Shown piece by piece: positions 11,001 through 36,005 of a DNA stretch of 64,000 nucleotides. Position 1 is the stretch's first letter; each line of letters opens with the position of its first letter. The DNA is from Holophagae bacterium. GTDB lineage: Bacteria; Acidobacteriota; Holophagae; Acanthopleuribacterales; Acanthopleuribacteraceae. Where the stretch lies: assembly GCA_029263455.1 (NCBI GenBank), contig JAJCXM010000035.1:124001-188000 (forward strand), read 5' to 3'. The notes under the pieces are model-generated. The model searched no databases, had not been told where the DNA came from, and was given only the letters and a program-made list of their open reading frames with translations. A program made the translations under genes and the position numbers.

Positions 11001-11813
11001 GGTGGATCTTTACCGGCCGGCACGGAGTGGGGACGATTCCTGGAATCCGCCGCAAATCCAGCTATGGCTGGCATGGAAATATTTGGGAAGCGTGACGGCA
11101 ACCTGCAAGTGGCAGGCCTAAACCTGACATCTGACAAACTCAAGAACCCTAACTTCTTCTATATCAAAAAGAACATCATATTCCCACACGTAGCAGCCGA
11201 CACAGTTAACTTTTGGACCGGGATCGCGTTCGTAAACACCGAGAACAGCCCTGTTTCAGCCACATTACGAGCTTATGACGCATCAGGTAATGTCCTTGCA
11301 GAGGAACCCATCATCATCGAGGGAACCGGCAAACGTGTCGGTCTCGCATACCAACTCTTCCCGACGCTCAATGAAAATACGGCCATTAGTTGGGTCCACC
11401 TGGAAACGGACGGATCGATTACCGGTTACGAGTTGTTTGGCAGTAACGATGGCACCAACCGTCGTTTGGCCGGGCTACAAGCAGTAACAGGTGGAGGGAC
11501 CTCGCTGGTCTTCCCCAAAATCTGGGTTGAATCGGGTATTTACTGGACAGGCCTTGCAGCGGTTAATCTGTCACAGAGCGAAAACGCCGTATTAACCTAC
11601 ACGGCTTACGCAGATGATGGCAGCGTTCGAGGAAGCGTTGAGAGGACAATAGGTCCGTTACAAAAAGATGTGGCTCTAGCTGAATCCTTGTTTGATGGCG
11701 TCCTGCCTTATGGCACCACGTGGATCAAAGTCAACGCCACGCAACCCATTGCGGCCTTTGAGTTGGTAGGCGATATTCAAGGAGAATTCTTAGCTGGACT
11801 GATTGCTCAATAG
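8085..11813 (+). CDS. Large exported protein with Ig/PKD-like repeats, PPC domain and C-terminal tandem repeats
   Basis: A 1242-residue secreted or surface protein with an N-terminal signal peptide (M-K-Y-L-L-M-L-G-F-T-F-A-I-A). Residues about 100-680 hold a series of PKD/Ig-like beta sandwiches, recognisable by D-P-E-G-D-x-(V/I)-x-Y-x-W and by strands ending in V-x-V-Y-E before proline-rich links. About 691-790 is a bacterial pre-peptidase C-terminal (PPC) domain (E-P-N-D-T ... D-D-N-D-P-V-D-W-Y-R-F). From about 809 four units of 100-115 residues follow (starts near 809, 915, 1031, 1141). Each begins with (I/V)-F-P-like strands, has W-x-T-G-x-A-x-x-N, and ends with W-(V/I)-x-V ... A-G-L. AAGG 6 bases before the ATG. 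Probably adhesive or structural; no catalytic motif is seen. Confidence 0.85.
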   Translation: MKYLLMLGFTFAIAQTGIISHPEFDPFTTDVQPVLFLASSSDVEWTTSDGQTATGITFLFEAPGSGRFRIKATLNGVTEDRFVYVQSTDPSRAISWPRIQGFSRSLTTVNPGQETIIRPVISDQDSFGPWAVHWFYLKDGQPRRLTADELRFRSTQESPEGIPIYAVVADNDGNFSPHSSTEVFVLEGNLPPTSRVIEPKYIQGFATVGEPIRFFADAIDPEGDVVSYTWREIQSGDEYSGNPVDVTFDSEGLRVFQLRAVDSGGHIDPSFPQFNVNVYAQEQVPTTIISLPLQNQRLDVGDSVVLGGQSFHPSGANLDVAWRILRNDQLLETRAGQGPHRVFVNQTGIYQIQLDAVGFPATRSSSNTRFLAVHEPKTNKPPEFTHTNIGTTLLVANQSTQTLSLSANDPEGDEITYEWFSEGVRLAGTTSTQTINFDFPEDAFQGGLARLNFAAFARDSSGNYTKTPGGIFVTVYEDRMPPSANISGFDSLSTIRIERGSLFNLFTELENAEGLDLNFFWSITRDRDSFFFSDQREPGQIRFDEAGVYFVSLFLNTSDFSLATAFVPSIWLHVYEPDQTPDTLITRPLESALFIESGTTVQFDGVVREPAFVDSDSPISTFDQVINRLSWVIDGPSGQVVIESDELVNYCFDQEGSYTVKLETINSLGLVDANPDSLTITVLGVRSDSSLEPNDTREQAATIVAGNYSQLSLDDNDPVDWYRFFLTETGATIELTFDLLASATDGKVEVYAGDTLLQVSPLRAGRLNPFIFNGSHAGQYDMKVSLNDANKGPGSLNFGVGITTANPRLIFPYPKYDVVDTTSLTVVNPFSEPAVVVFEARNKVGQTLSEVTVTLEPFARTERSIEQLFPQLNVLDLDWVRVRSNRSVIGMGLTLARDQKTAIAEPAIIGNLNELVIPHIAQNTEQWYTKAAVINNSSVSASALFNSVAGDWSVNSITDPYAHDLFDFVQFLGGSLPAGTEWGRFLESAANPAMAGMEIFGKRDGNLQVAGLNLTSDKLKNPNFFYIKKNIIFPHVAADTVNFWTGIAFVNTENSPVSATLRAYDASGNVLAEEPIIIEGTGKRVGLAYQLFPTLNENTAISWVHLETDGSITGYELFGSNDGTNRRLAGLQAVTGGGTSLVFPKIWVESGIYWTGLAAVNLSQSENAVLTYTAYADDGSVRGSVERTIGPLQKDVALAESLFDGVLPYGTTWIKVNATQPIAAFELVGDIQGEFLAGLIAQ

Positions 11814-19145: not shown

Positions 19146-21140
19146 TTATCGCACTAGACTTGAAAGTTTTGAGGGTTGCTTGGAGACGCTGAGTCCTAAA
19201 TTGAGATAGCGTTCGGCTTCATTGGGGTCGCCTACTCTGCGCAAGTGTTGCACTAAGGTTGAATATGAGTCGGTGTGGTTTGGTTCAATTTCCAGTGCGC
19301 GAATCAACGCATCTTTAGCTTTGTCATATTCGCCCAATATGATCAGCACTCGTCCCTTATACAACCACGCGAGGTGCATGTTGGACCGTAAGGCAATGGC
19401 GGCATTGAGTTGGGTCAACGCCAATTCATGCTGCTTACAAGAGAGTAGAGCCAGCGCGAGGTTAAAGTGGCCATCGGGGGTCGAATATTTCTCAATTGAC
19501 CGTTCAAACGTTTCCACCGCCTCATCCTTTTTTCCCTGCCTCAATTGAACGACTCCCCACAGATTTAAGCTAGCCGCCAAGTCAGGGTGAAGTTTCTGCA
19601 GGTGGAGCATTGTTTTCTCTGCGCCCATGTGATCTCGGAGCCTAACTTGAACCGTCAGAAGATCTAGAAAGGGCGTTGGACTGGTAAGATTCGATTCATA
19701 CACTATTCGTGACGTCGCTGAGGCGATGTTTGCGCTACCAAGGGCACGAATAATTGCTGTCATTCGATAAATCTCCCCCAGTTCTCCTCGAGGCACGTTG
19801 CCAAAAGGCAGCAACCCAATGTCGGTTATTGGCGCCTGCTCTGTTTTACTTACAACTGCGCTAACAGGCTCGAACGGGCCCACCGCAATGCGATGGTCGG
19901 TCATGGTGACCTGAATGACATCATCGGTCCTTCTAGTTGGCATATGACAGGACACGCAATCTCTGCGAACCTTAGCGTCGAGTAATTCAAGATGTTGGTG
20001 GTCTGCGTGGCACGACACACAGCGTTTGGCAACGCTTGCTCGGAAAACAGAACTCTCCGGTTTTTCGTGAGGATTATGACAACTTATACAACCTAGTTCC
20101 CCTTGACTTTGTTGGTAACAGGCACTTTGTGTGAGTCGGTAGCCATGATGATTTATCTCAAATCTCTCGTGCCCGTCACGTGTTACCTCAACGTGAACCA
20201 TGTAATCGGCCAATGACTCTCCAGGCCGGAACGAATAGTCGCTGCGCTCAAATCGACGTGCACCACCAATGCTGACGGCTGGCAACATATGGCACTGAAA
20301 ACAAACGGAATCACGTTTTTCGGGAGTCAATTTCCTGGGGTTGACAATGCGCTCGTGGATGACTTCAACCGGTTCGCTGTCCATTACCGCCTGAATATGC
20401 GCCAAACCCGGACCATGACATCTCTGGCATCCAGTCCCGTGGGGTAGTTGTTTTGGGAACCGTTGCGGTTTCCAATCGAGATCGTCACCCTTGGGCACAT
20501 CAGGGAATGCGTTATGGCAAAACATGCAGCTTCGTTTAACTTGCCGATGTATTCCGGGATGATCCGCCTCTTCGTAGCCAGGTGACATGGCCCATATCCC
20601 GCGTTCGCTATACCAGCCAAGAGGCAATTCGAAAAGCTCACCCCATTCGGTTTGGTAAATATAACTTCGAGCGCGATTGCCTGAACCCATCACCCAGTCG
20701 ACGTTTGTTTCGAATACATTGATGGCAACCCCAAGCTTGTCTTTTTGGTAACGCCTAAACACGAGCATTTGTCCATCGCGCCGTATTTGATAGTAGCGCT
20801 GAGATGGTGCATGGTAATACTCGGCTCCAAAGTCTTCGATTACCTTTGCTTGGGAAGCCGAAACAAACGACTTCGCCATACCCACATGCTGATAGCTTTT
20901 GTAGATAAGGGCATGACAGGTGCCGCACGCTTTGTCGTCAACATAACCTGGCGCAGCGCCTTGAGTCGCCTGAAACAGCAATTCCAATTTTGGTGGTGCC
21001 TGTTCCTGAGCATGTATCGACCCAATCGTCATCAGACAGCACCACAGCATGACTTTTATGAATCGCATCAAGGCGATGTCATCGAATAGATCTAGTCGCA
21101 CTTGTAAACAGCCGATTTCGCGCGCCGCGTATTGCGTCAT
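19146..21140 (-). CDS. Seven-heme cytochrome c with C-terminal TPR repeats
   Basis: 664-residue periplasmic electron-carrier-type protein. Seven C-x-x-C-H heme-binding motifs are visible in order: CGTCH (72-76), then CMFCH, CQRCH, CFQCH, CISCH, CVSCH and CVSCH. They resemble the cytochrome c554/NrfA-like multiheme group. The last ~160 residues are TPR repeats (for example A-W-L-Y-K-G-R-V-L ... A-L-E-I-E-P-N-H). Start uncertain: ATG at 21140 has AGGATGG and sits 12 bases after the aldolase stop, but puts 24 acidic residues ahead of the signal peptide. ATG at 21068 begins exactly at the signal peptide (M-R-F-I-K-V-M-L-W) but has no clear RBS. Confidence 0.9.
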   Translation of the reverse strand: MTQYAAREIGCLQVRLDLFDDIALMRFIKVMLWCCLMTIGSIHAQEQAPPKLELLFQATQGAAPGYVDDKACGTCHALIYKSYQHVGMAKSFVSASQAKVIEDFGAEYYHAPSQRYYQIRRDGQMLVFRRYQKDKLGVAINVFETNVDWVMGSGNRARSYIYQTEWGELFELPLGWYSERGIWAMSPGYEEADHPGIHRQVKRSCMFCHNAFPDVPKGDDLDWKPQRFPKQLPHGTGCQRCHGPGLAHIQAVMDSEPVEVIHERIVNPRKLTPEKRDSVCFQCHMLPAVSIGGARRFERSDYSFRPGESLADYMVHVEVTRDGHERFEINHHGYRLTQSACYQQSQGELGCISCHNPHEKPESSVFRASVAKRCVSCHADHQHLELLDAKVRRDCVSCHMPTRRTDDVIQVTMTDHRIAVGPFEPVSAVVSKTEQAPITDIGLLPFGNVPRGELGEIYRMTAIIRALGSANIASATSRIVYESNLTSPTPFLDLLTVQVRLRDHMGAEKTMLHLQKLHPDLAASLNLWGVVQLRQGKKDEAVETFERSIEKYSTPDGHFNLALALLSCKQHELALTQLNAAIALRSNMHLAWLYKGRVLIILGEYDKAKDALIRALEIEPNHTDSYSTLVQHLRRVGDPNEAERYLNLGLSVSKQPSKLSSLVR

Positions 21141-22824: not shown

Positions 22825-25365
22825 ATGCCATTCGCTCTTAAACCACCTTCACCAATCAAGAAAATTGCAGGACTAATTTGGGAAGAACTCGCAAGCAACC
22901 CATACATAATCGTGCTCACACTTCTTTGTTCCGCTCACCTGTATGCGACTTTAGCTTTAGGGGCTGGCGTAAGCCCAGACTCAACCACTTACATTGAAGG
23001 CGCAATAAATCTCGTTGCAGGTGATGGCTACACACAACAGGTTGCGGCCAATAAATTTAGTGCCATTGTGCATTTTCCTCCCCTATATTCGTACAGCCTG
23101 GCCTTGCTTATGTGGGCCGGTGTGCCCGTGGCCAATGCACCTGCTTTACTCAATTGTTTCTGTTTTGCCACTTGTATGATGATGCTTGCTTACAGCATAC
23201 GTCGATTAACCGGCAGTCACCTGCTGGTGGTTGCTTCAATACTGTGGCTATTCACATCGCCTTCAATGTTTGATGTTTTTCGAATGGCTTGGAGTGAGCC
23301 GCTCTTCATGGTTTTGATATTGCTGGGCTTAGGTACTGCGATACAACATTTATTGGCGGGTGGTCGTTTGTGGATCGCTTTCGCCTGTATCCTGCTTTCG
23401 CTGGCGTTTATATGTCGATTTGCGGGATTCACGGCCATTGCCACCGCAGCCTTGCTAATTGCCGCATTCGGCGAAGGACGCCTTTGGGAAAGAGGATTTA
23501 GAGCCTTCGTCTTTGGCGCAGTGGCATCGCTGCCAACGCTACTTTGGATGGCTTGGCGTTCGTCAAATAATTTGGCGGGACGAACCCTAAGCTGGCACCC
23601 AATTGGACGCGTACACATTCACCAGGCTGCTGAAACCGTTTCCAGTTGGATTCATGTTGATTTGCCGCTCTGGCTGAAAGCCTTGATTGCCGTATTCTTA
23701 GCCATTGGTGCGGTTGCCGCTTGTTTTCGTGTTCGCCATGGCAATCGCGCTCAGCACTTGGTTTTCATGACAGCGATTTTATTTTCAGTCATCTATGCGG
23801 CCTTCATAGGCGCTTCTATAACACTGGTCGATTTCAATACGCCACTCAATAATCGCATTTTGGCACCCGTACTAATGGTTGCCATTTTCGCGGTCATATT
23901 GAGCCTACATTCGTGGTCAACGTCGTCGGAGCTCCCATTTCTCGGCCGTCTCCTTCCCTTTTCGATCGTTATCGTCGCAGTGTTCTTTCAGACACCAGAA
24001 CTGTGGCAGAAGTGGTCGGACATGCGCACTCAAGGCGAAGGATATGCGAGCGCTCGATGGCAGCATTCAAGCCTGCTAAATGAAGCAAAAAACGTCCCAT
24101 TGGAACTAGCCATATATTCTAATATGCCAGATCTGATCAGACAGTCTACACAGCGACCCACTTACGGTTTCCCGTCACCCTTTGACCCCATCAAAAATCA
24201 AGAAAATCCCCACTTCCCCGCATTGATAAAGCAAGAGTTGGAAAGGGCCAAGAACAGTTCAAGCATCATCTTTTTCATCACATCCATCGCTCGACCCCAT
24301 TCGATTTCGTTAGAGACAATCTTTGAGCAGGGTGGCTGGACGCTATATGCGGCATTTGACGATGGCGTACTGCTCGTCCCGCCAAACGCGTCGGCGCTCA
24401 AAACTCTGCAAGAATGTGGCGTGCTGCAAAACATCAATCGCAGTTACGGTTTTTGGGAACTTCCGCTCCATTCGGTCAGGCTGGATACAACTCGCTGCGA
24501 ATATCAGACTAATTCTGATGGGTCCATCGAAATTCGTTCAAACAGCCATGATCCGTTTTTTGTATGGTCTGCAGGACGAGCGAACATCCCTATTCACGGT
24601 ATTTCGGTTGCGATAAATCACGAACTTAAGGAATCGACTTGGTTTGAGTTGAGCCTAAGAGACCGTGACACCGGTGCAATCACCACTAGGCGCCAAGCCG
24701 TCAGCCCAGCATCTTCAGCGCAAACACACAATTTTTGGTTCTCGTTTGACAACCCACAAGAAACCGATTTGATTCGTTTCGATCCCACGGATGGGCTAGG
24801 CTCCATAAAGGTTGAATCCGTTTTCCTACACACCCCACTCTATTGGGCCGGTCACAAAGACCTACAGCGGAAGCGGCCATTGACAGAATATTATGGGTAT
24901 TTGCCCGCACTACGTCCCGATATCTCCTCTTGGGAGTTGCTACTAGGCGATCAAGTATTTGCCGTTTACCATGCTGAAACGATTATGGATGGGCAGCGCC
25001 TCAAAATCACAAGCGACAATAACGACCCTTTCCTGATTTGGGCTCGACGTGATTTAGCGCTCCCGGTTCTGGGCGTATCAATCACAGTCGAATCAGAGGG
25101 CGTCAAACCGGACGCACAAATCGTTCAAATCTTCCTTCGGGACCCTGTAACGCAAGCACTCACCGACGTGCACCTAAGTTACCAGCAAGAGAAAAGAGTT
25201 CACATTTGGTTTAATGAAGGTCATGCACTTATGACAGACCTTATTCGAATTGATCCAATGGCGGGTCCGGGTACGTCATGGATATCAAATATTGTTGTCC
25301 ATACGCCAAATGGTCCTATCACGTCGGCCGATCTTGTTCGCGCCCTTCAGCCGCCAAATCCATAG
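22825..25365 (+). CDS. GT-C-like polytopic membrane protein with two C-terminal repeat domains
   Basis: 846 residues. The first ~420 hold about ten hydrophobic spans with the early loop V-S-P-D-S-T-T-Y-I-E-G-A, the D-x-x-x-Y pattern of GT-C/ArnT-like glycosyltransferases that use polyprenyl-phosphate sugars. Later, W-S-E-P-L-F-M also fits such enzymes. After the membrane part, two related beta-rich domains occur at about 569-673 and 726-830. Each has (I)-x-S-x-(S/N)-(H/N)-D-P-F-x-(V/I)-W, L-R-D-x-x-T, (F/I)-W-F, T-D-L-I-R-x-D-P and ends V-H-T-P. Weak RBS. It starts the island of similar membrane proteins. Function inferred only; donor and acceptor unknown. Confidence 0.8.
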   Translation: MPFALKPPSPIKKIAGLIWEELASNPYIIVLTLLCSAHLYATLALGAGVSPDSTTYIEGAINLVAGDGYTQQVAANKFSAIVHFPPLYSYSLALLMWAGVPVANAPALLNCFCFATCMMMLAYSIRRLTGSHLLVVASILWLFTSPSMFDVFRMAWSEPLFMVLILLGLGTAIQHLLAGGRLWIAFACILLSLAFICRFAGFTAIATAALLIAAFGEGRLWERGFRAFVFGAVASLPTLLWMAWRSSNNLAGRTLSWHPIGRVHIHQAAETVSSWIHVDLPLWLKALIAVFLAIGAVAACFRVRHGNRAQHLVFMTAILFSVIYAAFIGASITLVDFNTPLNNRILAPVLMVAIFAVILSLHSWSTSSELPFLGRLLPFSIVIVAVFFQTPELWQKWSDMRTQGEGYASARWQHSSLLNEAKNVPLELAIYSNMPDLIRQSTQRPTYGFPSPFDPIKNQENPHFPALIKQELERAKNSSSIIFFITSIARPHSISLETIFEQGGWTLYAAFDDGVLLVPPNASALKTLQECGVLQNINRSYGFWELPLHSVRLDTTRCEYQTNSDGSIEIRSNSHDPFFVWSAGRANIPIHGISVAINHELKESTWFELSLRDRDTGAITTRRQAVSPASSAQTHNFWFSFDNPQETDLIRFDPTDGLGSIKVESVFLHTPLYWAGHKDLQRKRPLTEYYGYLPALRPDISSWELLLGDQVFAVYHAETIMDGQRLKITSDNNDPFLIWARRDLALPVLGVSITVESEGVKPDAQIVQIFLRDPVTQALTDVHLSYQQEKRVHIWFNEGHALMTDLIRIDPMAGPGTSWISNIVVHTPNGPITSADLVRALQPPNP

Positions 25366-25450
25366 TCACTCCGGCGCTCATTTCAGGTAATTCGATTTGG
25401 CGTGCCGGATGGATTGTTGACCCACCCTCCGCTGTTCAGGCGTCATTCAG

Positions 25451-25479
25451 CGGTCAGAAGAAGCTCCAAGTCGTATAAT
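25451..25479 (+). promoter_or_regulatory. Candidate promoter of the first TMTC-like gene
   Basis: Perfect TATAAT at 25474-25479 with CGGTCA 17 bases upstream (25451-25456), 41 bases before the first ATG. The -35 is weak (3 of 6). Confidence 0.45.
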
Positions 25480-25519
25480 GTTCGTTTAGTCAATAGCCGC
25501 TTAATTCATAGATACCGTT

Positions 25520-27472
25520 ATGGAAACACATATGAAACCTACACGCTACATATGGGCGGGATTCGCTCTTTTGGTCGCTTCCATTTTTTGGGTATATTGG
25601 CCAGCCCTCAATGGCGCATTCGTATTTGACGATCGATATAACCTTTTGGATAATCCCAATTTTCGTGGATTTAGCGTGGATAATTTGATTTGGGCCTTCA
25701 CCCAATCACACATTGGTCATTATCAACCCCTCACGTGGCTTTCTTTCATGGTGGATTACAGTTTTTGGGGCATGGATCCCGTTGGATACCACGCGGTAAG
25801 CATCTCACTACACGCCGTCAATGCCGTCTTGTTCACGATTCTGGCTGCAAAGCTCTTTTACCTCGCCGCAACAAAGGAAACGCGTGCCGGACATTCAATC
25901 CAATACGCTGCATTTCTATCGGGCGCCATATTTGCCCTACATCCGCTACGGGTGGAATCGGTGGCTTGGATTACCGAGCGACGTGATGTTTTGTGCACGT
26001 TCTTTTTCCTTTTGTCACTTATGGCCTACCTCAAATGGGTCAGATCGGACGGCCCAAAACGAACTCGCTGGTACGTGTTAGCAGTTTTGTGTTTCCTAAT
26101 GTCATTGATGAGTAAAGCCCTTGCCATGGCCCTGCCGGTTGTTTTGATTACCTTGGATGGTTGGCCTCTTGATCGCCTGCGCCGTGGCCAAATAAAAAAT
26201 ATTCTTGTTGAAAAAATCCCGTTCATGGCATTGACCATCGTATTTATGGTCATGGCATTCGCCGCTCAATCAACGGCCGTTGTCACGCTTGGCGCTCATC
26301 CTCTCAGTGCGAGGATTGCACAAGCTTTTTACGGCCTTGTTTTTTATATACGCGCCACGTTTTTTGCGATCGACTTGGTTCCTCTCTATGAGATTTCGTT
26401 CCCACTTAACCCGTTTGAGTTGCGCTTCATTTTGTCAGCAATTCTGGTCGTGTTTGTTAGTGTATTTACGCTCTCAATGCGGCGGAAATGGCCTGCATTA
26501 TTGGCGTTTTGGGTTGCATATATCGCCCTCTTGAGTCCCGTCCTTGGTTTCGCTCAATCAGGCAATCAACTTGTGGCAGATCGTTATAGTTATATAGCCT
26601 GCCTAGGCCTTTCGATGCTGCTTGGTTGGAATCTTACTCGACTTTGGTTAGCATCGAAGCAGGTTGTGGCGTTGCGCGTTCTCGTAGGCTTATTCATCAT
26701 AACCATGATCGTTGGATGGGCATTCTTAGCTCGAAAGCAAACCAGGGTATGGCAAAACGAACAGGTTCTTTGGGAACATGTCTTAAATAACGGTCCCTCA
26801 GCCATAGGATTCAACAATTTGGGCGTTCTGCAAAGTCGCGCAGGGCGCCCGGCCGCCGCCGTAACCTATTTCGCCCGCTCACTAAGCGTCGCCGCCAACT
26901 ACACGATTGCACTTAACAATTTGTTGCCAGCGCTACAGGCTTCGTTAAATGACTTGCAACCTCAAACATTGCGGCACATTGAAAAACCCTTTCGAGACGC
27001 CATGACAAAACATCCGAAAAAGAGTGAAGGCTGGTTTATGCTCGGAGTGATCATGATGAAACTCAATATGTACCAGCAGGCCTCAATCGATTTCAAGAAT
27101 GCCCTTGCAGCCAATCCAACCCTCGCAGCGGCTGATTTTCAACTTGGGTTAGCACTTCAAATCCAAGGGCACGGTGAAGAGGCCAATGAGCATTATCGAC
27201 GTGCGCTAAAGAACGATCCAGCCTTAACCGAGGCACGTCTAGCCCTTGGCGTAGGATTGCTTGAATTGGGCGACTATGAAGCGGCCATCACCATTTTCGA
27301 CGACACTATCCGGGAAAAACCAAGAAATGCGATCGCCTGGACGGGATTGGGTGCATCGCGGCTACATTTGGGCGATCGATCAGGAGCCATCAAAGCACTA
27401 GAGCGGGCTCTCGAGCTCGATCCCAATAATCGCAAGGCGGCCAGTCTCTTGAGCCAAGCGCGTGCTCATTAG
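25520..27472 (+). CDS. TMTC-like polytopic membrane protein with TPR tail (putative O-glycosyltransferase)
   Basis: 650 residues. About ten membrane spans occupy the first ~400 and TPR repeats fill about 415-645. The first periplasmic loop has F-V-F-D-D-R-Y-N (the acidic pair of TMTC/GT-C enzymes). Further hallmarks are F-A-L-H-P-L-R-V-E-S-V-A-W and, near 340-355, V-A-D-R-Y-S-Y-I. Eukaryotic TMTC proteins with this layout O-mannosylate cadherin folds; the bacterial relatives are mostly uncharacterised. ATG at 25520 is used here; ATG at 25532 (M-K-P-T-R) is equally possible. Same strand as the CRTAC1 gene that follows. Confidence 0.85.
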   Translation: METHMKPTRYIWAGFALLVASIFWVYWPALNGAFVFDDRYNLLDNPNFRGFSVDNLIWAFTQSHIGHYQPLTWLSFMVDYSFWGMDPVGYHAVSISLHAVNAVLFTILAAKLFYLAATKETRAGHSIQYAAFLSGAIFALHPLRVESVAWITERRDVLCTFFFLLSLMAYLKWVRSDGPKRTRWYVLAVLCFLMSLMSKALAMALPVVLITLDGWPLDRLRRGQIKNILVEKIPFMALTIVFMVMAFAAQSTAVVTLGAHPLSARIAQAFYGLVFYIRATFFAIDLVPLYEISFPLNPFELRFILSAILVVFVSVFTLSMRRKWPALLAFWVAYIALLSPVLGFAQSGNQLVADRYSYIACLGLSMLLGWNLTRLWLASKQVVALRVLVGLFIITMIVGWAFLARKQTRVWQNEQVLWEHVLNNGPSAIGFNNLGVLQSRAGRPAAAVTYFARSLSVAANYTIALNNLLPALQASLNDLQPQTLRHIEKPFRDAMTKHPKKSEGWFMLGVIMMKLNMYQQASIDFKNALAANPTLAAADFQLGLALQIQGHGEEANEHYRRALKNDPALTEARLALGVGLLELGDYEAAITIFDDTIREKPRNAIAWTGLGASRLHLGDRSGAIKALERALELDPNNRKAASLLSQARAH

Positions 27473-27610
27473 GCACAAGATATACCCCAGACTTACTTGA
27501 TGGTGACGGGCTGATGCTGCTGCCTTCGCGGAACCAGCAGTGTCGACAGTTCCACGAGCATGTTATAGGATTTCATTGTTTCGCTATGAGATAGGTATTT
27601 CATTCATAAG

Positions 27611-29326
27611 ATGACACTTCATTCTGGCTATGTTTCTATTGGCATATTATTGATTTGCGGTTGCAACAATCCACGAGTCCAACCAGATTCGCGTGTACAA
27701 AATCAGATTTTTGTCGCCGTACCTGATAATGCTGGTATTCACTTTACACACACAAATGGAATGACAGGACGACTCTACATTGCTGAACTAATGGGTGCTG
27801 GAGCCGGCTGGCTTGATTACGACCGTGATGGCGACTTGGATTTATTCCTGGTTCAAGGCAGGATGTTAGGAAATCATGAGCAAAGCGAGCTGCTGGTAGA
27901 TTGGCAGGGAGACCCACCATGCGACAGGCTATTTCGCAACGAATTGGTCCCCTCGGGTCACTTAGATTTTGTGGATGTAACCCAAGAAAGCGGTATTTTG
28001 GGTCTTGAGTATGGAATGGGTGTCGCGGTAGGAGATTACGATCGCAATGGATTCCCTGACCTATATGTCACAAACCTGGGTAACAACAGACTGTGGCGCA
28101 ACAATGGCGACGGCACGTTCCATGATGCCACGCCAGTTGCGCTGGTCAATGATTCCCGATGGTCAACCGCCGCAATCTTCTTTGACTATGATAGAGATCA
28201 ATATTTAGATTTGTTTGTATGCAACTACGCTGAATTCAATGCGAACTTCGAAAAAGAGTGCGCCACGCCTCAGGGTACACTTGATTATTGTGGACCTTTG
28301 AGCTTTGCGAGCATCACTGACCGCCTTTTCCACAATAACGGGGACGGCACATTTGAAGATGTCACCGGTTCTTCGGGCATTGCATCGGCTTATGGTCGTG
28401 GTTTGGGCGTAATCGCATCTGATCTCAACGATGACGGATGGCTCGACCTATATGTGGCCAACGATTCAAGCGCTAACCAACTTTGGATTAACCAAGGAGG
28501 CCATCGCTTTGAAGATAATGCCCTCATGGCCGGTTGTGCATATAACGGATCTGGTAAAGCCGAAGGCAGTATGGGTATCGAAATCGGCGACATCGACGGC
28601 GACGGACAAGACGATCTTTTTGTCACTCATTTTGTAAACGAAACCAACACGCTCTATCGCGGTAAGGGCAAGGGCCTTTTTGAGGACGCGACCGATTTCG
28701 TTAATTTGGCGACCGCAAGCCGTTCGCTCACTGGGTTTGGATGTGCATTCATCGACGTTGACAACGACGGCGATCTAGATCTATTGGTTGCGAATGGCGC
28801 CGTGAAAATAAAGTGGGATCAGCAAACAAAGGGTGAGATTTATCCCCTAAAGGAACCGAATCAACTCTTTCGAAACAATGCGGGCCAATTTGAGGTCATC
28901 AAGACAGAGCCTGAGTTGAATAAATGGGCCGTCAGTAGAGCTGTAGCCATGGCGGACGCTGATAACGACGGCGATATCGATGTCCTAATTACAGAAAGTA
29001 ATGGTCCAACGAAGTTGTTACTGAACCATTCCCAGTTAAACTGGGTCGGTTTCACGTTGCTCGATAAGCAGAACATTGAGGTTTATGGTGCTCGATTGAC
29101 GTTGTGTTTAGGCGATGGAACAAAGTTGACCCGTTGCGTGCGAGTTGATGGTAGTTATTTGAGCAGCCATGATCCCCGGGTTAACATCGGAATTACTGGT
29201 AGGACGCTCAGTTCAGCCTATCTGATGGTCAATTGGCCCGATGGCGGTTTGGAAAAATTCGAGGGACCGTTCATTGAGCGCACATATATTAGGGTTCAGA
29301 AAGGCTCAGGAATTGACAGTCATTGA
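27611..29326 (+). CDS. CRTAC1-family protein with FG-GAP/VCBS repeats and ASPIC/UnbV domain
   Basis: 571-residue exported protein, possibly a lipoprotein (hydrophobic N-terminus ending L-L-I-C-G-C-N-N). At least seven calcium-binding-type blade motifs are visible, such as D-Y-D-R-D-G-D-L-D-L-F, D-Y-D-R-N-G-F-P-D-L-Y, D-L-N-D-D-G-W-L-D-L-Y, D-I-D-G-D-G-Q-D-D-L-F and D-A-D-N-D-G-D-I-D-V, building an integrin-like beta propeller. The last ~80 residues are the ASPIC/UnbV domain (N-W-P-D-G-G-L-E-K-F). No strong RBS. The TPR gene that follows overlaps its 3' end, so the two products likely work together on the outer surface or in the periplasm. Confidence 0.9.
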   Translation: MTLHSGYVSIGILLICGCNNPRVQPDSRVQNQIFVAVPDNAGIHFTHTNGMTGRLYIAELMGAGAGWLDYDRDGDLDLFLVQGRMLGNHEQSELLVDWQGDPPCDRLFRNELVPSGHLDFVDVTQESGILGLEYGMGVAVGDYDRNGFPDLYVTNLGNNRLWRNNGDGTFHDATPVALVNDSRWSTAAIFFDYDRDQYLDLFVCNYAEFNANFEKECATPQGTLDYCGPLSFASITDRLFHNNGDGTFEDVTGSSGIASAYGRGLGVIASDLNDDGWLDLYVANDSSANQLWINQGGHRFEDNALMAGCAYNGSGKAEGSMGIEIGDIDGDGQDDLFVTHFVNETNTLYRGKGKGLFEDATDFVNLATASRSLTGFGCAFIDVDNDGDLDLLVANGAVKIKWDQQTKGEIYPLKEPNQLFRNNAGQFEVIKTEPELNKWAVSRAVAMADADNDGDIDVLITESNGPTKLLLNHSQLNWVGFTLLDKQNIEVYGARLTLCLGDGTKLTRCVRVDGSYLSSHDPRVNIGITGRTLSSAYLMVNWPDGGLEKFEGPFIERTYIRVQKGSGIDSH

Positions 29327-30893
29327 TCCAGCCTCCGTAGCGGCGACATCCTGTGCAGCTGAACCACGGCTAGCGATTTTTTGCTTGTGTCTATCACTCA
29401 TGTTTTGGCAAATAGCGTGTCAAAGTGTAACGATGCAGGACGTTGATCATCCAAGTTATGATCGCCTCGAACAAGCGACAATCGATATCATTGAGGGAAT
29501 CAAGCAGAACTTGGACGATCCCGCCAAGCAGGACCCCTACCAGCTTGGCTTCCACTATTCTGAGCTTGGGAGGTGGTATTACTCGCTTGAGTTTGATCAG
29601 GCCGCTCTCACCTGTTTCCGAAACAAGCGGCAACTAGCTGACGATTATGGATCAGCCTATTACGAAGGGCGAATTGCGCACACTTTAGGGGACCTACCCG
29701 CTTGTATCAAGGCCATGATTGATTGCTTGGAAATGTATCCGAGCTATTTACCAGCAAGCGTCTTTTTGTCTCAAGCCTATCGCGAATCAGGTGAGTTGAT
29801 GAAAGCTCAATCAGTACTTGACGAAGTTGACGATCAAGGCGCCGCCATCCTATACGAGCGCGCACTCATTGCACAACGCCAGGGGGACCCCAACAAAGTC
29901 ATCCAATTCGCAAGAAGAGCGTTAGAACAGGAGCCGGAGGCCAACGCGCTCAACTACCCGCTAGGAATCGCGTTGCGCGACACAGGCGAAACCGAGCTGG
30001 CTGAGAAGTATTTATCTGCACGGGGCAATCGCAACCCGCAACTAGAAGATCCATTGATGGATGACATCGCCAATCTACAAGCAGGCAATCGCGCATTGGC
30101 TCAAGATGCTTTAACAGATGTGCTTCGTGGTGATCACAGCGCGGCGTTAGAAAAGTATCGTAAGTGCATTGCTGAAGAGCCTGAGAACGCACGCCTTCAT
30201 CGCAATATGGCGGTGGCACTAAAGATGAGCGGAGACTTGGAGTCGGCGTTATCGTCTCTAACCATTTCGCTCGAACTTGAACCTTCGCATCCAAAAACGC
30301 TCTTCAACTTGGGAACCGTACTGTCGCTTTTGGGACGTGATGAAGAAGCCACGGTCTATTATCAAAATGCACTTCAAGCAGCCCCTGAATTCACCGATGC
30401 AGCATTCAATCTGGCAAACCTTTTACGCCGTCAACATAACTATGAAGATTCGGTGCACTGGTTTGACCATGTTCTCAAGGCTCGACCAGGTAACCGCGAC
30501 GCCCACATGGGTTACATCGTTGGGCTTATCGGTCTTGAAGATTGGGAATCAGCCGAGAATGCAGTGCAGACGGCTATTCTTGGAGTGCCCACCGACCCCA
30601 TATTCAAGAACCTTTCAATTCGATTACAGGTTGCGGTTCCAGACAGGTTCCAAACCCCAACCCAGGAAGTCTTCGATGAAGCCTCTCTTTTGTATCGCAG
30701 CGAAACGAATCTAATCAATGCCGAAACCTACGCCATGATTTTGGCCGCCATCCATCGTTGGCCAGAGGCAGAAGCACTACAGTTGGATATCATCAAAGCA
30801 GCTGATACGGCAAAAAAGCATGAAATCCTGCCACGGTTACAAAAAAACCTCGCTGCTTATCAGGCTCACAAGCATGCTCAAATCGCTTGGTGA
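29313..30893 (+). CDS. Exported TPR-repeat protein coupled to the CRTAC1 gene
   Basis: About 527 residues from the TTG at 29313 (AAAGG 8 bases upstream, 14-base overlap with the CRTAC1 stop). The frame is open from 29241, but that ATG would overlap the upstream gene by 86 bases. A hydrophobic stretch ending in Q-I-A-C suggests export, perhaps as a lipoprotein with a non-ideal lipobox. The rest is TPR repeats (for example A-L-E-K-Y-R-K-C-I-A-E-E-P-E-N-A). CRTAC1/ASPIC proteins are often found beside such TPR proteins. Probably an adaptor or scaffold in the same process. Confidence 0.8.
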   Translation: MTVIDPASVAATSCAAEPRLAIFCLCLSLMFWQIACQSVTMQDVDHPSYDRLEQATIDIIEGIKQNLDDPAKQDPYQLGFHYSELGRWYYSLEFDQAALTCFRNKRQLADDYGSAYYEGRIAHTLGDLPACIKAMIDCLEMYPSYLPASVFLSQAYRESGELMKAQSVLDEVDDQGAAILYERALIAQRQGDPNKVIQFARRALEQEPEANALNYPLGIALRDTGETELAEKYLSARGNRNPQLEDPLMDDIANLQAGNRALAQDALTDVLRGDHSAALEKYRKCIAEEPENARLHRNMAVALKMSGDLESALSSLTISLELEPSHPKTLFNLGTVLSLLGRDEEATVYYQNALQAAPEFTDAAFNLANLLRRQHNYEDSVHWFDHVLKARPGNRDAHMGYIVGLIGLEDWESAENAVQTAILGVPTDPIFKNLSIRLQVAVPDRFQTPTQEVFDEASLLYRSETNLINAETYAMILAAIHRWPEAEALQLDIIKAADTAKKHEILPRLQKNLAAYQAHKHAQIAW

Positions 30894-30915
30894 GCCTAGT
30901 TAAACGGTCAATTTT

Positions 30916-32811
30916 TTATTGTTGCACGAATTGAGCAAGGATTCGCTGAGCTTGAATACGACCTTGGACGGAAACTTCATCCTGGTAACCATCAATACTG
31001 TCTAAATAGGCCAATAGCAGCGTCCTTCCATTCTCCAAATTGCCTGCCTGGATCTCGATAGTAGCCAACAGGTACCGAGCTCGTTTCGCGATTGCATCCG
31101 GTTCAAGATCAATGCGCTCGATACAGGCTTCAAGGTTTTCTTTGATGACATCGGTGCTACCCTGTTGCGAATACAAAACCACCAGGTTCGTTGTTAGCCG
31201 ACAATAATGATGTGGTAATTGTTGACGGGCGTTTTCTAAAGCCATAATCGCCTCGTCGATACGTTCAAGTGCAACCAAACAAGAAGCAAAATTTTCTAGG
31301 GCCACCAGTTGGTCTGGGTATATCTCAAGCACATTTTGAAAATCGATTATGGCGTCGTTGAATCGCCCTTCTGTTTGGGCAATCAAGCCACGATTAATCA
31401 ATGCATGGGTGACGGGTGCAATGGCAAGCGATTCATTAAATGCGGCTTTTGCATCTTCCAAAAGACCTTTATATCTTAGCGCGACGCCAAGCTGCGCCCA
31501 GTTATAACTCGACGAAGGGTCAACCTCGACAGCCTTCTGCCAAAGACTAAGCTCCGATTGCCATACATGAGCGTAATGCCAACTACGCCATGCGAAAACG
31601 CTCATGAGCATCACAAATCCGGAAATGATTATCGGTTGCAGAATCTTGGTGTGGACAAGCCGAACCTTTCTGCCGAGACAAGCTACTAGAATCGCTATAC
31701 CGATTAGTGATGTGTACAAGTAACGATCATGAACCAGTTGTTCCTGCATGAAGACTCGAATATTCAAAACTGGCATCAACGGAAGCATAAACCATAACGA
31801 TACCTTCCAGAGACGTCGTTTTGGTAAGAGCTTGAAACAGAGTATGCCTACCAATAGCACCGCCAATCCAGGTGCCACCCAGCCACTCCACTCACTGAAT
31901 TCGGTTAGGCGAACCGGATAAGACGGCCCCAATAGGGTCAGCGGAAAAAATGACTGTTTTAGATAAAACCACAACACAGGGAAACATGTGGCCAATGCAT
32001 CAGTTAATGGATAGTCCCACGGCGCAGATAACATGTGACCTTTGATCACAAAATAACGCATTGCAAGGAATACCATATCTACAACCAACATCGGCATGAC
32101 AATTGTGAGCGTCGTCTTTACTCGAGTGGCTAATGGATTTCCGCGACTGTCAATCCACCATTCGACCCCAACAAGAACTGGCAGCAGGATCGCGATTTCT
32201 TTGGCGGTCAGAGCCAGCACCATACATAAGAGTGCCGCAACTTTCGTCTTCAAACTAAGATTGTTTTGCGGTCTTAACAGAATCACGACCCAGATCATAA
32301 ATAGGGTTGCAAGCGGGGTATGAGCACCCGAAATCCAGGCAACCGATTCGACCTGTGTTGGATGCAGCGCAAAAAATGTAGATCCGGCGAGGGACGGAAA
32401 AAGTGAGAATCCATATATCTTAAATAGGTACATCAAACTAAGAATGACCATCAAATGCAGCATGATGGCACTCGCATGCCAGCCAGCGGGATTGAGGCCA
32501 AAGATCGTGTAATTAGCGATCAGCCAAGTCACGAATGTAGGTCGCCAATAGTTGCTCCATGCTTTCTCTCGTGCCGGTCCCTTAAACGCCCATACATCCG
32601 AAGTCATCGCCTCCCAAAAGAGACTCGGGTTCTGGATCAGATGGTTCTCGACGATTTGAGAACGATCGTCGTACACAAACTCGCCATCCAAAGTACGCCA
32701 ATAGACGAGTGTCGTGACGAGCAATAACCCTATCGTTGCGAGCACCCACGATCTTGGTCTGTCAGTCCGCTCATGCCCCTGTTCGACGATATTTGAAGTA
32801 TCGTTAGACAT
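30916..32811 (-). CDS. Second TMTC-like membrane protein with TPR tail
   Basis: About 631 residues from the ATG at 32811 (M-S-N-D-T-S); a TTG at 32817 is better spaced from the GGGAG. The frame is open to 32877, but that start would run into the upstream gene. About ten spans are followed by TPRs from about 430. Family marks: F-V-Y-D-D-R-S-Q in the first loop, F-F-A-L-H-P-T-Q-V-E-S-V-A-W, and V-H-D-R-Y-L-Y. It is a paralogue of the 25520 gene in layout and motifs, on the opposite strand. It forms an operon with the membrane-TPR gene upstream, 28 bases away. Confidence 0.83.
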   Translation of the reverse strand: MSNDTSNIVEQGHERTDRPRSWVLATIGLLLVTTLVYWRTLDGEFVYDDRSQIVENHLIQNPSLFWEAMTSDVWAFKGPAREKAWSNYWRPTFVTWLIANYTIFGLNPAGWHASAIMLHLMVILSLMYLFKIYGFSLFPSLAGSTFFALHPTQVESVAWISGAHTPLATLFMIWVVILLRPQNNLSLKTKVAALLCMVLALTAKEIAILLPVLVGVEWWIDSRGNPLATRVKTTLTIVMPMLVVDMVFLAMRYFVIKGHMLSAPWDYPLTDALATCFPVLWFYLKQSFFPLTLLGPSYPVRLTEFSEWSGWVAPGLAVLLVGILCFKLLPKRRLWKVSLWFMLPLMPVLNIRVFMQEQLVHDRYLYTSLIGIAILVACLGRKVRLVHTKILQPIIISGFVMLMSVFAWRSWHYAHVWQSELSLWQKAVEVDPSSSYNWAQLGVALRYKGLLEDAKAAFNESLAIAPVTHALINRGLIAQTEGRFNDAIIDFQNVLEIYPDQLVALENFASCLVALERIDEAIMALENARQQLPHHYCRLTTNLVVLYSQQGSTDVIKENLEACIERIDLEPDAIAKRARYLLATIEIQAGNLENGRTLLLAYLDSIDGYQDEVSVQGRIQAQRILAQFVQQ

Positions 32812-32839
32812 ATTCAAGAGAGCTCTCCCATGTGTGACA

Positions 32840-35170
32840 TTAAGGCACCTGAGTATTTCCCAATTCGACTTCTTCAATCTGGTGGCTTAGCTGGCTCAAT
32901 AGAACATTACCCGGGTCTTTTTCAAGGCCCATCTCAACGTAGAACCTTGCTTGAGATATATCGTTTTCAGAAAGATAGACAATTGCCAAGTCACTGTAAA
33001 GTGACCCATCGACCTGATTGAGTTGCAATGCCAATTCAAGAATTTTCTTCGCCTCAGCGGATCTCTTTGTTTTGACAAGCACGCGAGCCAAATTCTTGCT
33101 GTACACCGTGTTTTGCGAATCGAGTTCATAAGCGTGTTGATAGCCTTCCACTGATCTGGCCATATCGCCCAAACGGTAAGAAAGCTTCCCAAGTAATGCC
33201 CAACCGTGAGCATGATCCGGCTCAAGTATCAGTGCCCGATCTAACACATCCCTTCCCTGACTGATTTCGCCTTGTTTAACGTAGAGCGCCGCTAATTCAA
33301 AATAGACCTGAGAATATGGTGTTTCTTGATCCGCAAGCACCCTATACCTTTTGATTGCCGAGGTTATGTCACCGGATTGATTGAGGGCCGTGGCAAGCGA
33401 TAACGCATAAAGCTGATTATTGGGCTGAGTTTCAGCAGCATCAGTCAAAAACGAAACAGCCTCCAGGGGACGGCCTAGTGCCAGCAAGAATTGACCAAGG
33501 CGAATGTGAACAGTCGGAGAATATGACCGTTCCATTAAGCGCAACCGATCAAGTGCTTTAACGGCTGGGAGCTTGGATCTAAGTTGGTCAGCAAGTTGGG
33601 CAATCTGATCGCCCGTTAATGCTTGAATATCGGAACGAACCGTCTGGTGCAGGAATACGGCGTCGATTTCGTCGAAATAGACCAAGCGCCAAGCTGAATC
33701 ATTTAGCACTTCATCTAACATTCCAGTGTTCAGATTCAAAAGCAAGACACTGAATCCATAATGTTCGGCCGCCCGTCTCCAAGCATCTGGATCGTTAAAT
33801 AGCCCGACAAATTCAATCACTCGCCGTTCCCCGTAGACTTCAAGCCGTGGATCAAAAAAGACTTTCTGATGGCGTGCTGTTAAATAGGAACCGTCAGCCA
33901 TCGAATGAAAAATGGGGCCTTGAATGCCGTTTTCAGTGACAAATGAAACGGCATTTTGGGGATACCTGTGACTAGCTAAGCCAAGCCCGAATTGATTTGT
34001 ATCGCCTTGACGGACGTAGAACCGATCAGTCGTTAACTCACGCATGTACCAAAAGCAAGCGCTGATAATAACAATCGCATAAAGCTGTTGCATTAACAAT
34101 CGGCTGCGCACCATCCATGGCCACTTCAGCCCGGCACTGTTGTTGACCAAAACCGAGTTAACGTTGAAAACGAACAGAGGAATTGCAACCAGACCAAATA
34201 GTGGCAGGTTTCTAATCGAAAGGTTCGAAAGATAGAATTGCGAAATAGCCAGGAGCGTCCAAAACGCATCTAGCCGCCTCCAATTCGCAACCATCGAGCC
34301 TAAACAAAGGAAAACCAACCATTTATAGTAGACGAGAGCTGTGAACGGGGTCTGAAAGGCAAATGGACCGTGAAACTCTCCAATAACCTGTTTTAGACCC
34401 GTGCCGCTAATCTCTTGGAACAATGTAAATGGGAACAATGCCCCGTCTAAGCCATAAGGGTTTAACAAACACGCCAATATGGTCAGCAGACAAATGATAC
34501 CCAATTGCAGGGAGAGTCGCCCCTTATCGCATTCTTTACTCTTTTTCGTGTGTCGCGCAAAAAACCAGGGAGCGGCGGTGACGGTAAAGTAGAGTCCCAT
34601 CAACAAGGGTCCCAAAATGAAGAGAGTATGCGAATTTGTCCAGACAATTTGCAAAAGAGGCAGTAAGAAAAGACATTTTTTAGGTATTCTGCCGTCGCGG
34701 CTGGCAGCTATCATGAAAATGAATAACGCCATAAAAAAGAATGTCACTATCTCCGGACGCAGAAAAAATCTTTGGCTGGAGGCTAGCACCGAAACCATCA
34801 ACACCGTCACAGTAGCCAGAGTTGCTTTCTTCGTGAAGACAGCCGCACTAACCAACGCAAACGCGGAGGCGATGCATAGAGTCTTAAGGAGGACGGCTGC
34901 CGAAAACCCTAATGAATTGACAGTAAAATATAGAGCGAGACAATATAGCCAACGTAGCTCAATCCAAACATGACTGGCCGATGTGTAGGAGAAGCTGTCG
35001 AGTTTAGGGAATCCATGTAGGACTATGTATTCGCCTGTCGCGTATTGCCACCAAAAATCGACACACCATATTCGGCGCGTACATGCCAATACCAACACGA
35101 CACTGACTGACAACAGTGCGGCGACCGCAAATCGGCCCGTTACCCTTTCCTTCGCATGGGAGATGGTCAA
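32840..35170 (-). CDS. Polytopic membrane protein with C-terminal TPR repeats (GT-C-like)
   Basis: 776 residues. About ten to twelve membrane spans fill residues 15-400, and a TPR array runs from about 530 to the end. The first loop has D-F-W-W-Q-Y-A-T-G-E-Y-I, then F-S-Y-T, a pattern seen in bacterial GT-C-like membrane proteins, though it lacks the D-D-R motif of its TMTC-like neighbours. Between the membrane part and the TPRs, about 400-520 forms a periplasmic domain (D-G-S-Y-L-T-A-R-H-Q-K-V-F-F-D-P-R). TTG start with a GGTAGGT-like RBS. Co-directional with the second TMTC-like gene. Confidence 0.78.
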   Translation of the reverse strand: MTISHAKERVTGRFAVAALLSVSVVLVLACTRRIWCVDFWWQYATGEYIVLHGFPKLDSFSYTSASHVWIELRWLYCLALYFTVNSLGFSAAVLLKTLCIASAFALVSAAVFTKKATLATVTVLMVSVLASSQRFFLRPEIVTFFFMALFIFMIAASRDGRIPKKCLFLLPLLQIVWTNSHTLFILGPLLMGLYFTVTAAPWFFARHTKKSKECDKGRLSLQLGIICLLTILACLLNPYGLDGALFPFTLFQEISGTGLKQVIGEFHGPFAFQTPFTALVYYKWLVFLCLGSMVANWRRLDAFWTLLAISQFYLSNLSIRNLPLFGLVAIPLFVFNVNSVLVNNSAGLKWPWMVRSRLLMQQLYAIVIISACFWYMRELTTDRFYVRQGDTNQFGLGLASHRYPQNAVSFVTENGIQGPIFHSMADGSYLTARHQKVFFDPRLEVYGERRVIEFVGLFNDPDAWRRAAEHYGFSVLLLNLNTGMLDEVLNDSAWRLVYFDEIDAVFLHQTVRSDIQALTGDQIAQLADQLRSKLPAVKALDRLRLMERSYSPTVHIRLGQFLLALGRPLEAVSFLTDAAETQPNNQLYALSLATALNQSGDITSAIKRYRVLADQETPYSQVYFELAALYVKQGEISQGRDVLDRALILEPDHAHGWALLGKLSYRLGDMARSVEGYQHAYELDSQNTVYSKNLARVLVKTKRSAEAKKILELALQLNQVDGSLYSDLAIVYLSENDISQARFYVEMGLEKDPGNVLLSQLSHQIEEVELGNTQVP

Positions 35171-35238: not shown

Positions 35239-35274
35239 AAAAAGGCCACGGAAATCCGCAAAGATTCCCGCGAC
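35239..35274 (-). terminator. Terminator after the IPTL-CTERM protein gene
   Basis: On the minus strand, GGTCGCGGGAATC pairs with GGATTTCCGTGGCC (about 13 bp, several G-T pairs, 5-base loop), followed directly by TTTTT. It begins 30 bases after the stop at 35304 and separates this gene from the downstream membrane-TPR gene. Confidence 0.7.
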
Positions 35275-35303
35275 CTCTTAATGGTCTAATTTCGAACTGA
35301 TTG

Positions 35304-36005
35304 TTAGGTAAGCTGTTGGCGGTTACGACGCATATAGAACAATGCGGCTGCTACCAAGAGCGTGATAAACACGATGGTTCCCCATTCGCCCAATGTTGGG
35401 ATTTGCACACCAAACGTTCCGGTTGGCATTAAGCACCATTGGTCCAGCGTGCCTGTATCGCCACCGGCATTGTCGGAAATAGTCAAAGTCCAATCGCCAA
35501 CGAGGTCCATGCCATTAAAGACGGCAAGTGACTGAGCTGGCTGAAAAGCACCATTAATGGTGGGGTCTGATGCAGCACAAACGTTTTCAGCGGTGCCAGC
35601 AGCAGCATCATCGAATACGGCAGAAATATTATTCATGCTGCAACCGAATGTAGAAGCTGGCACGCCTGCTTGATCTAATAGCACAACGGTCGTACCATCG
35701 TGCTCCAAGGTCACGATAATGTCGCCAACCCAAGAATGAGTGACGTCCAAGGACACATCAAGATCATCAATTGTACCGGCATCAACAATGGTGATCGTGC
35801 GGCTCAAGCCCGCAGGTGTATTGTCTGGGATGGCAGTGGCAGCCGGATCACAAATAGGTGCGGTTCCACGCACAACGGTCGATGTGTAAGGTGTTACACG
35901 GGTAGGTTCTGGTGAGTCAGGGTCAGCAATTTTCTGAGCAAATACATCCATACATAACAGAGAAATCGCGATACAAAGGAACATGCGACTGGGTCTATTT
36001 AACAT
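35304..36005 (-). CDS. Proprotein-convertase P-domain protein with IPTL-CTERM sorting tail
   Basis: 233-residue surface protein. Signal peptide (about 1-23). P-domain-like beta sandwich at about 45-195, with D-V-S-L-D-V-T-H-S-W-V-G-D-I, then V-G-D-W-T-L-T-I-S-D, G-T-L-D-Q-W-C. The C-terminal sorting signal starts at about 202 with I-P-T-L-G-E-W-G, followed by one membrane span and a basic R-R-N-R tail, the layout of IPTL-CTERM proteins. Unlike subtilisin-linked P-domains it has no protease domain. Strong Shine-Dalgarno GGAGGAG. It is probably anchored or processed at the envelope by a sorting enzyme not in this window. Confidence 0.9.
   Translation of the reverse strand: MLNRPSRMFLCIAISLLCMDVFAQKIADPDSPEPTRVTPYTSTVVRGTAPICDPAATAIPDNTPAGLSRTITIVDAGTIDDLDVSLDVTHSWVGDIIVTLEHDGTTVVLLDQAGVPASTFGCSMNNISAVFDDAAAGTAENVCAASDPTINGAFQPAQSLAVFNGMDLVGDWTLTISDNAGGDTGTLDQWCLMPTGTFGVQIPTLGEWGTIVFITLLVAAALFYMRRNRQQLT

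Follow-up and report, generated by a model that had tools for sequence, protein, structure and literature searches.

Predicted GT-C membrane proteins, two of them TMTC-like, in a loose gene cluster of a Holophagae bacterium

Introduction

Do the membrane-protein genes crowded into one part of a Holophagae genome work together as a glycosylation system, or are they neighbors with separate roles? The window analyzed here is a stretch of 64,000 nucleotides, in which a first-pass annotation described an island of four GT-C/TMTC-like proteins with CRTAC1 and TPR partners and proposed a dedicated surface-protein glycosylation system. Our data point to a different reading, which we consider likely: the genes form a loose, genome-specific GT-C cluster, two of whose members belong to a widespread bacterial TMTC-like family, beside an unrelated CRTAC1-TPR pair, and the GT-C proteins are predicted to be periplasm-facing transferases that move lipid-linked sugars onto exported proteins.

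Results and discussion

Layout of the locus

All six open reading frames were recovered where the first-pass annotation had placed them. They form two convergent units, one running from 22825 to 30893 on the plus strand and the other from 35170 to 30916 on the minus strand. The features of the locus and its surroundings are as follows.

8085-11813: PKD protein, 1242 aa
22825-25365, plus: 846-aa GT-C membrane protein, Pmt/ArnT-like fold at residues ~16-520 followed by C-terminal repeats (AlphaFold model, VIA-align; no Pfam family)
24454-24837, plus: 846-aa protein, beta repeat 1 of 2 at the C terminus (self-comparison)
24931-25308, plus: 846-aa protein, beta repeat 2 of 2 at the C terminus (self-comparison)
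25520-27472, plus: TMTCa, TMTC-like GT-C domain (residues ~9-410, about 11 membrane helices) and TPR superhelix (414-650) (Pfam TPRs, model, fold match, motifs)
27611-29326, plus: CRTAC1/ASPIC FG-GAP protein with a signal peptide/lipoprotein-like start (PF13517, 8e-47; PF07593, 6e-8)
29313-30893, plus: exported TPR protein, start TTG at 29313 (ORF, start context, Pfam TPRs)
30916-32811, minus: TMTCb, divergent TMTC-like GT-C domain and TPRs (Pfam TPRs, match to TMTCa, motifs, tree)
32840-35170, minus: 776-aa protein, about 7 predicted membrane spans and C-terminal TPRs, 28 bases upstream of TMTCb (Pfam TPRs)
35240-35279, minus: terminator-like hairpin between the 35304-36005 and 32840-35170 genes, an 18-pair stem then a T-rich tail
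35304-36005, minus: P-domain protein with an IPTL-CTERM sorting tail (PF01483, TIGR04174)

The P-domain/IPTL-CTERM gene is probably outside the cluster. GC content is flat throughout the region (0.47-0.51), and a horizontal island by composition was rejected; the word island, which base composition does not support, is therefore a label for gene content only. Elsewhere in the window, the protein encoded at 19146-21140 joins TPRs to a multihaem, cytochrome c554-like cytochrome c with paired CXXCH motifs.

TMTCa and TMTCb share the layout of TMTC enzymes

The structure predicted for TMTCa from 68 aligned sequences has a mean pLDDT of 94.7 and a pTM of 0.90; it shows the membrane fold of GT-C enzymes, and its first outer loop carries acidic residues. 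In structure comparisons, STT3, AglB, Pmt1/2 and Pmt4 match residues ~4-440 of the model over 325-356 residues with Z scores of about 19-21, although identity is 6-14% and the outer domains of STT3, AglB and Pmt are of other kinds and contain no TPRs. Residues ~414-650 match TPR superhelices. Both window proteins thus have the arrangement of TMTC (GT105) enzymes, a GT-C domain followed by TPRs, as seen from Pfam and from the TMTCa model and its fold match. TPRs are the only Pfam matches of TMTCa, TMTC_DUF1736 (PF08409) was found in neither TMTCa nor TMTCb at E 0.1, and neither TMTCa, its family profile nor a profile of the 846-aa protein gave anything meaningful in PDB sequence searches.

The motifs that had suggested a TMTC relationship are all present in both proteins: FVFDDR in TMTCa and FVYDDR in TMTCb, FALHPLRVESVAW and FALHPTQVESVAW, and DRYSY and DRYLY, respectively. 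We compared TMTCa with the seven motifs of animal TMTCs and found the DD motif, the proline after EL1, RxD, the EL3 lysine and the R/Y of EL5. The EL1 aspartates are nearly invariant among the 68 aligned sequences (D37 in 67, D38 in 65; TMTCa numbering). TMTCa lacks both metal-ligand motifs: the E of KE and the EL4 DW, which have been placed at the metal (PMC7801869). At the KE motif (M4, metal/phosphate site) TMTCa reads KA, and E occurs in 2 of the 68 sequences and is missing from 66; at the DW motif (M5, metal site) TMTCa reads LY, TMTCb reads SY and the family reads (F/L)Y, with Y290 invariant. Since the remaining motifs are kept while the E of KE and the EL4 DW are missing, TMTCa is TMTC-like in layout and is not a TMTC by Pfam or metal-site criteria, and O-mannose in particular is not supported, as both metal-ligand motifs are lacking. 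The motif set typical of the bacterial proteins (HPxxVESVAW, ERxD, an invariant K, WPxxLxxFYP and DRYxY) is complete in TMTCa except that FAIDLVPLYE stands at the WPxxLxxFYP element.

Set against the motif table of PMC7801869, TMTCa shares with eukaryotic TMTC1-4, which are cadherin O-mannosyltransferases, the GT-C domain of about 11 helices, DD in the first outer loop, the proline after the DD loop, HPxxxE, RxD, the EL3 lysine, the R/Y of ERxxY and outer-side C-terminal TPRs. It differs in having, like TMTCb, no DUF1736 match and in the changes at KE and EL4, and ERxxY is replaced by DRYxY. Reading the helices of the TMTCa model against the 11-span TMTC scheme of PMC7801869 would place the DD loop and the TPRs in the periplasm.

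TMTCb is 26-29% identical to TMTCa. It contains DD, DRYxY and, alone within the window, KE, and reads GAHT where nearly all other members read ERxD. The loss of this otherwise near-invariant RxD raises the question of whether TMTCb, and perhaps TMTCa as well, has a GT-C fold without activity and serves TPR scaffolds as a membrane anchor or regulator; inactive GT-C proteins do exist, such as PIG-U (PMC7801869). We regard this as improbable given that TMTCb retains DD, KE and DRYxY and that TMTCa retains the conserved family motifs.

In our tree, TMTCa groups with two Elusimicrobia genes, apart from the L053-L060 and L055-L059 pairs common to both genomes of the window's genus, and TMTCb lies nearest to a tandem gene pair (L169) of another same-phylum genome. 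These placements indicate that the cluster is not a recent tandem duplication and that it has no close same-genus counterpart. TMTCa and TMTCb, being mutually distant, could differ in their acceptors, possibly lipids or glycans.

The 846-aa and 776-aa proteins

The confident part of the AlphaFold model of the 846-aa protein was aligned by VIA-align with Pmt4 (Z 22.8) and ArnT (Z 22.1), so that the modeled fold is of GT-C type and closest to Pmt and ArnT. The match to ArnT, an aminoarabinose transferase, extends over 436 residues and includes the small outer domain, whereas the 846-aa protein adds two C-terminal repeats. We confirmed these repeats (31% mutual identity over 131 residues, E 2e-15); they are absent from relatives of the protein, and AlphaFold confidence within them is low. 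The sequence contains SPDSxxY, PPLY, AWSEP and NNR, and among the protein and its few relatives E158, R198 and R344 do not vary and D52 hardly varies. Such relatives occur in 8 of 296 other same-phylum genomes, and no match was found in the remaining 60 genomes of the relatives set.

The equally good fit to ArnT and Pmt bears on whether the GT-C proteins of the window modify a glycan or lipid (LPS, capsule, or a side-branch of exopolysaccharide), as do ArnT, GtrII and Aft enzymes, and not proteins. Enzymes of this kind are common (PMC7801869, PMC6801728), and the beta repeats of the 846-aa protein could bind carbohydrate. Against this, TPR partners are usually proteins, and pilin genes recur near TMTC-like genes, as described below. 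For the GT-C proteins as a group we find a glycan or lipid acceptor rather unlikely; the case is stronger for the 846-aa protein, which might use a glycan acceptor, than for TMTCa and TMTCb.

The 776-aa protein has no Pfam matches beyond its TPRs, and hhalign profile comparison with A1 and A3 revealed no GT-C link. Its one distant same-genus relative (L071) is without TPRs. Of the four proteins first described as GT-C/TMTC-like, the models and motifs support a GT-C fold and TMTC-like architecture, while profiles do not tie the 32840-35170 protein to GT-C; the TPRs proposed for TMTCa, TMTCb, the 776-aa protein and the exported protein were all confirmed by Pfam.

The gene group is not a conserved system

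The first-pass annotation named a neighborhood search in advance as decisive against its proposal should the gene order vary between genomes. We found neither the same gene set nor the same order at any other locus in 61 related genomes, one of them from the same genus, or in the other same-phylum genomes examined, so the group does not behave as a conserved multi-gene glycosylation system. Synteny with the same-genus genome, using the flanking genes as anchors, gave weak matches only.

The proposed CRTAC1 partner was identified correctly: the 27611-29326 protein combines FG-GAP repeats with the UnbV_ASPIC domain (PF07593). The 14-base overlap with the downstream TPR gene is also correct if that gene starts at TTG 29313, which has AAAGG 8 bases upstream. 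CRTAC1 and TPR genes alternate in the window's genome and its relatives (L057, L067, L065), often with 4-base overlaps, and form a separate, stable module. The window's genome has 10 CRTAC1 copies at E<=1e-30, including the window copy, and the sister genome has 8; ASPIC matches number 16 in the window's genome, and 30 of 80 genomes are positive. A 1057-aa multi-span protein between CRTAC1 genes (L065) was considered as a GT-C candidate and rejected, as it matches a spermidine-synthase domain behind membrane spans.

CRTAC1 genes were found in none of 80 TMTC-like loci of other genomes and TMTC-like genes in none of 51 CRTAC1 loci, and we rejected CRTAC1 as a partner of TMTC-like proteins. One exception, L153 (G128), has a TMTC-like gene directly upstream of CRTAC1 on the same strand with a 54-base gap. 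Its enzyme belongs to another clade of the tree, which indicates that the pairing arose separately. In this same-phylum genome (L153:6974-14095), a further CRTAC1 gene lies two genes away. Since the window's genome has many copies of both genes in its 6.2 Mb (~0.1 meetings expected, a rough estimate), one chance meeting there is not very surprising.

The large Ig/PKD protein, suggested earlier as a substrate, is not singled out by anything that we found. A 53% identical copy is retained in the same-genus genome, which has no close counterparts of the window GT-C genes, and the C-terminal part recurs about 24 times per genome; for these reasons the protein is not marked as a specific substrate. 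The C-terminal ~420 residues occur at about 24 places in the window's genome and 26 in the sister, and this shared module belongs to large, probably exported proteins. No sorting-tail model matched the PKD protein.

These data bear directly on the proposal of a dedicated surface-protein O-glycosylation system in which Ig/PKD proteins are the joint target of four GT-C-like proteins, CRTAC1 and the TPR protein. The presence of four GT-C-like genes within 12 kb and the repeated TMTC-like to CRTAC1 order in L153 speak for it. The lack of linkage elsewhere, the separate origin of the L153 pairing, the unmatched 846-aa protein in the 60 other genomes and the PKD protein retained in a genome without these genes speak against it, and we judge such a system very improbable. 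The grouping of these genes is either accidental and local or specific to the lineage; it is no established system.

TMTC-like genes are widespread and recur near GT2 and pilin genes

TMTC-like proteins exist in prokaryotes (PMC7801869). We found such genes in 56 of 80 same-phylum genomes, with 8 copies in the window's genome, and one short pattern gave at least 584 confirmed places across many phyla in a species-level genome collection. It is normal for a locus to carry more than one of them (37 of 80 loci). Bacterial members are 22-37% identical to TMTCa, and among 203 family sequences the EL3 lysine never varies, DD is present in 193 and the R of RxD in 196, and DRYxY is dominant.

One paralogue in the window's genome (L056:8567-10333, minus strand; G000:C8, about 578.6-580.4 kb) matches Pfam TMTC_DUF1736 above cut-off (E 1.9e-7) and carries the animal-type motifs EYRPLT, GRAD, CKESG and ERTLY. 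Three prepilin-like genes lie beside it, together with genes for a 1320-aa protein and a further prepilin and a GT2 gene, and no ATG, GTG or TTG start lies upstream of its first membrane span.

Across the 80 loci, GT2 genes are enriched directly beside TMTC-like genes (10 of 19 versus 163 of 770 ORFs overall, p 0.002), as are prepilins within three genes of them (13 of 14 versus 392 of 770, p 0.001); both are binomial tests chosen after the data were seen, on mechanical ORF calls. A GT2 gene followed by a TMTC-like gene occurs in the window's genome (L055), is kept in the same-genus genome (L059) and has a similar pair in a more distant relative (L064). For the L055 and L056 GT2 genes of the window's genome, the nearest NCBIfam models all score below their cut-offs; AglJ, dolichyl-phosphate hexose transferase, ArnC and PpgS are among them, and the set includes synthases of polyprenyl- or dolichyl-phosphate sugars.

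In seven loci (L084, L089, L099, L123, L133, L146 and L151), one to five TMTC-like genes follow a pilA-like gene on the same strand. These loci are titled delta proteobacterium, Desulfobacterales, Syntrophaceae, Desulfobacteraceae or Desulfonema (Desulfobacterota-type). Their pilins read GFTLIELM... AIAIPxF, and L084 also has a GT2 gene. They are likely pilin glycosylation arrays and seem to be undescribed as TMTC-like. A pilA cluster of cable bacteria, described independently by others, contains a methyltransferase, two glycosyltransferases and TPR proteins, and looks like the same arrangement, with no TMTC link drawn in the portion of the source available to us (PMC10580974). The window resembles that cluster in having TPR-protein genes beside sugar enzymes; it differs in that the TPR proteins there are not called TMTC-like in that portion, and in that no pilin gene stands beside the window copies. 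The seven arrays contain TMTC-like GT-C/TPR genes of the window's family, whereas the window is without an adjoining pilin. Because no GT2 or pilin gene adjoins the window copies, it is their paralogues and relatives that provide the pilin clue.

Three TMTC-like genes of the window's genome and its relative each have an IPTL gene within about 9 kb. A pattern scan for PEP- or IPTL-type tails in the 80 loci and in 18 other TMTC-like loci found none, and IPTL-CTERM sorting substrates were dropped as candidate acceptors.

A model for TMTC-like proteins and its implications

On the reading of a loose cluster beside an unrelated CRTAC1-TPR pair, the TMTC-like proteins would probably be active enzymes of the inner membrane whose catalytic DD loop and TPR superhelix both face the periplasm. 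The predicted sugar donor is a polyprenyl-phosphate carrier, which would be made by a GT2 enzyme encoded elsewhere, and the sugar would be passed to an exported protein gripped by the TPRs of the enzyme. A separate protein-binding domain of the enzyme also chooses the acceptor in FlmG of Caulobacter (PMC7591256), but FlmG modifies flagellin in the cytoplasm and is not a membrane GT-C.

More tentatively, and with the balance of our judgment still somewhat against it, bacterial TMTC-like GT-C/TPR proteins may be a large unrecognized class of protein O-glycosyltransferases that work in the periplasm. They would receive their sugars from dedicated polyprenyl-phosphate-sugar synthases and modify type IV pilins along with other exported proteins. 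The animal TMTC cadherin pathway would then be a descendant of this class or have a common origin with it, and the window copies would be members with other exported acceptors.

We found no function, activity, sugar or acceptor described in the literature for any bacterial TMTC-like member, although the family is as common as the counts above indicate (56 of 80 same-phylum genomes; at least 584 places). The GT2 and pilin links point directly to an acceptor that can be tested for at least part of this family, which the window alone would not have shown.
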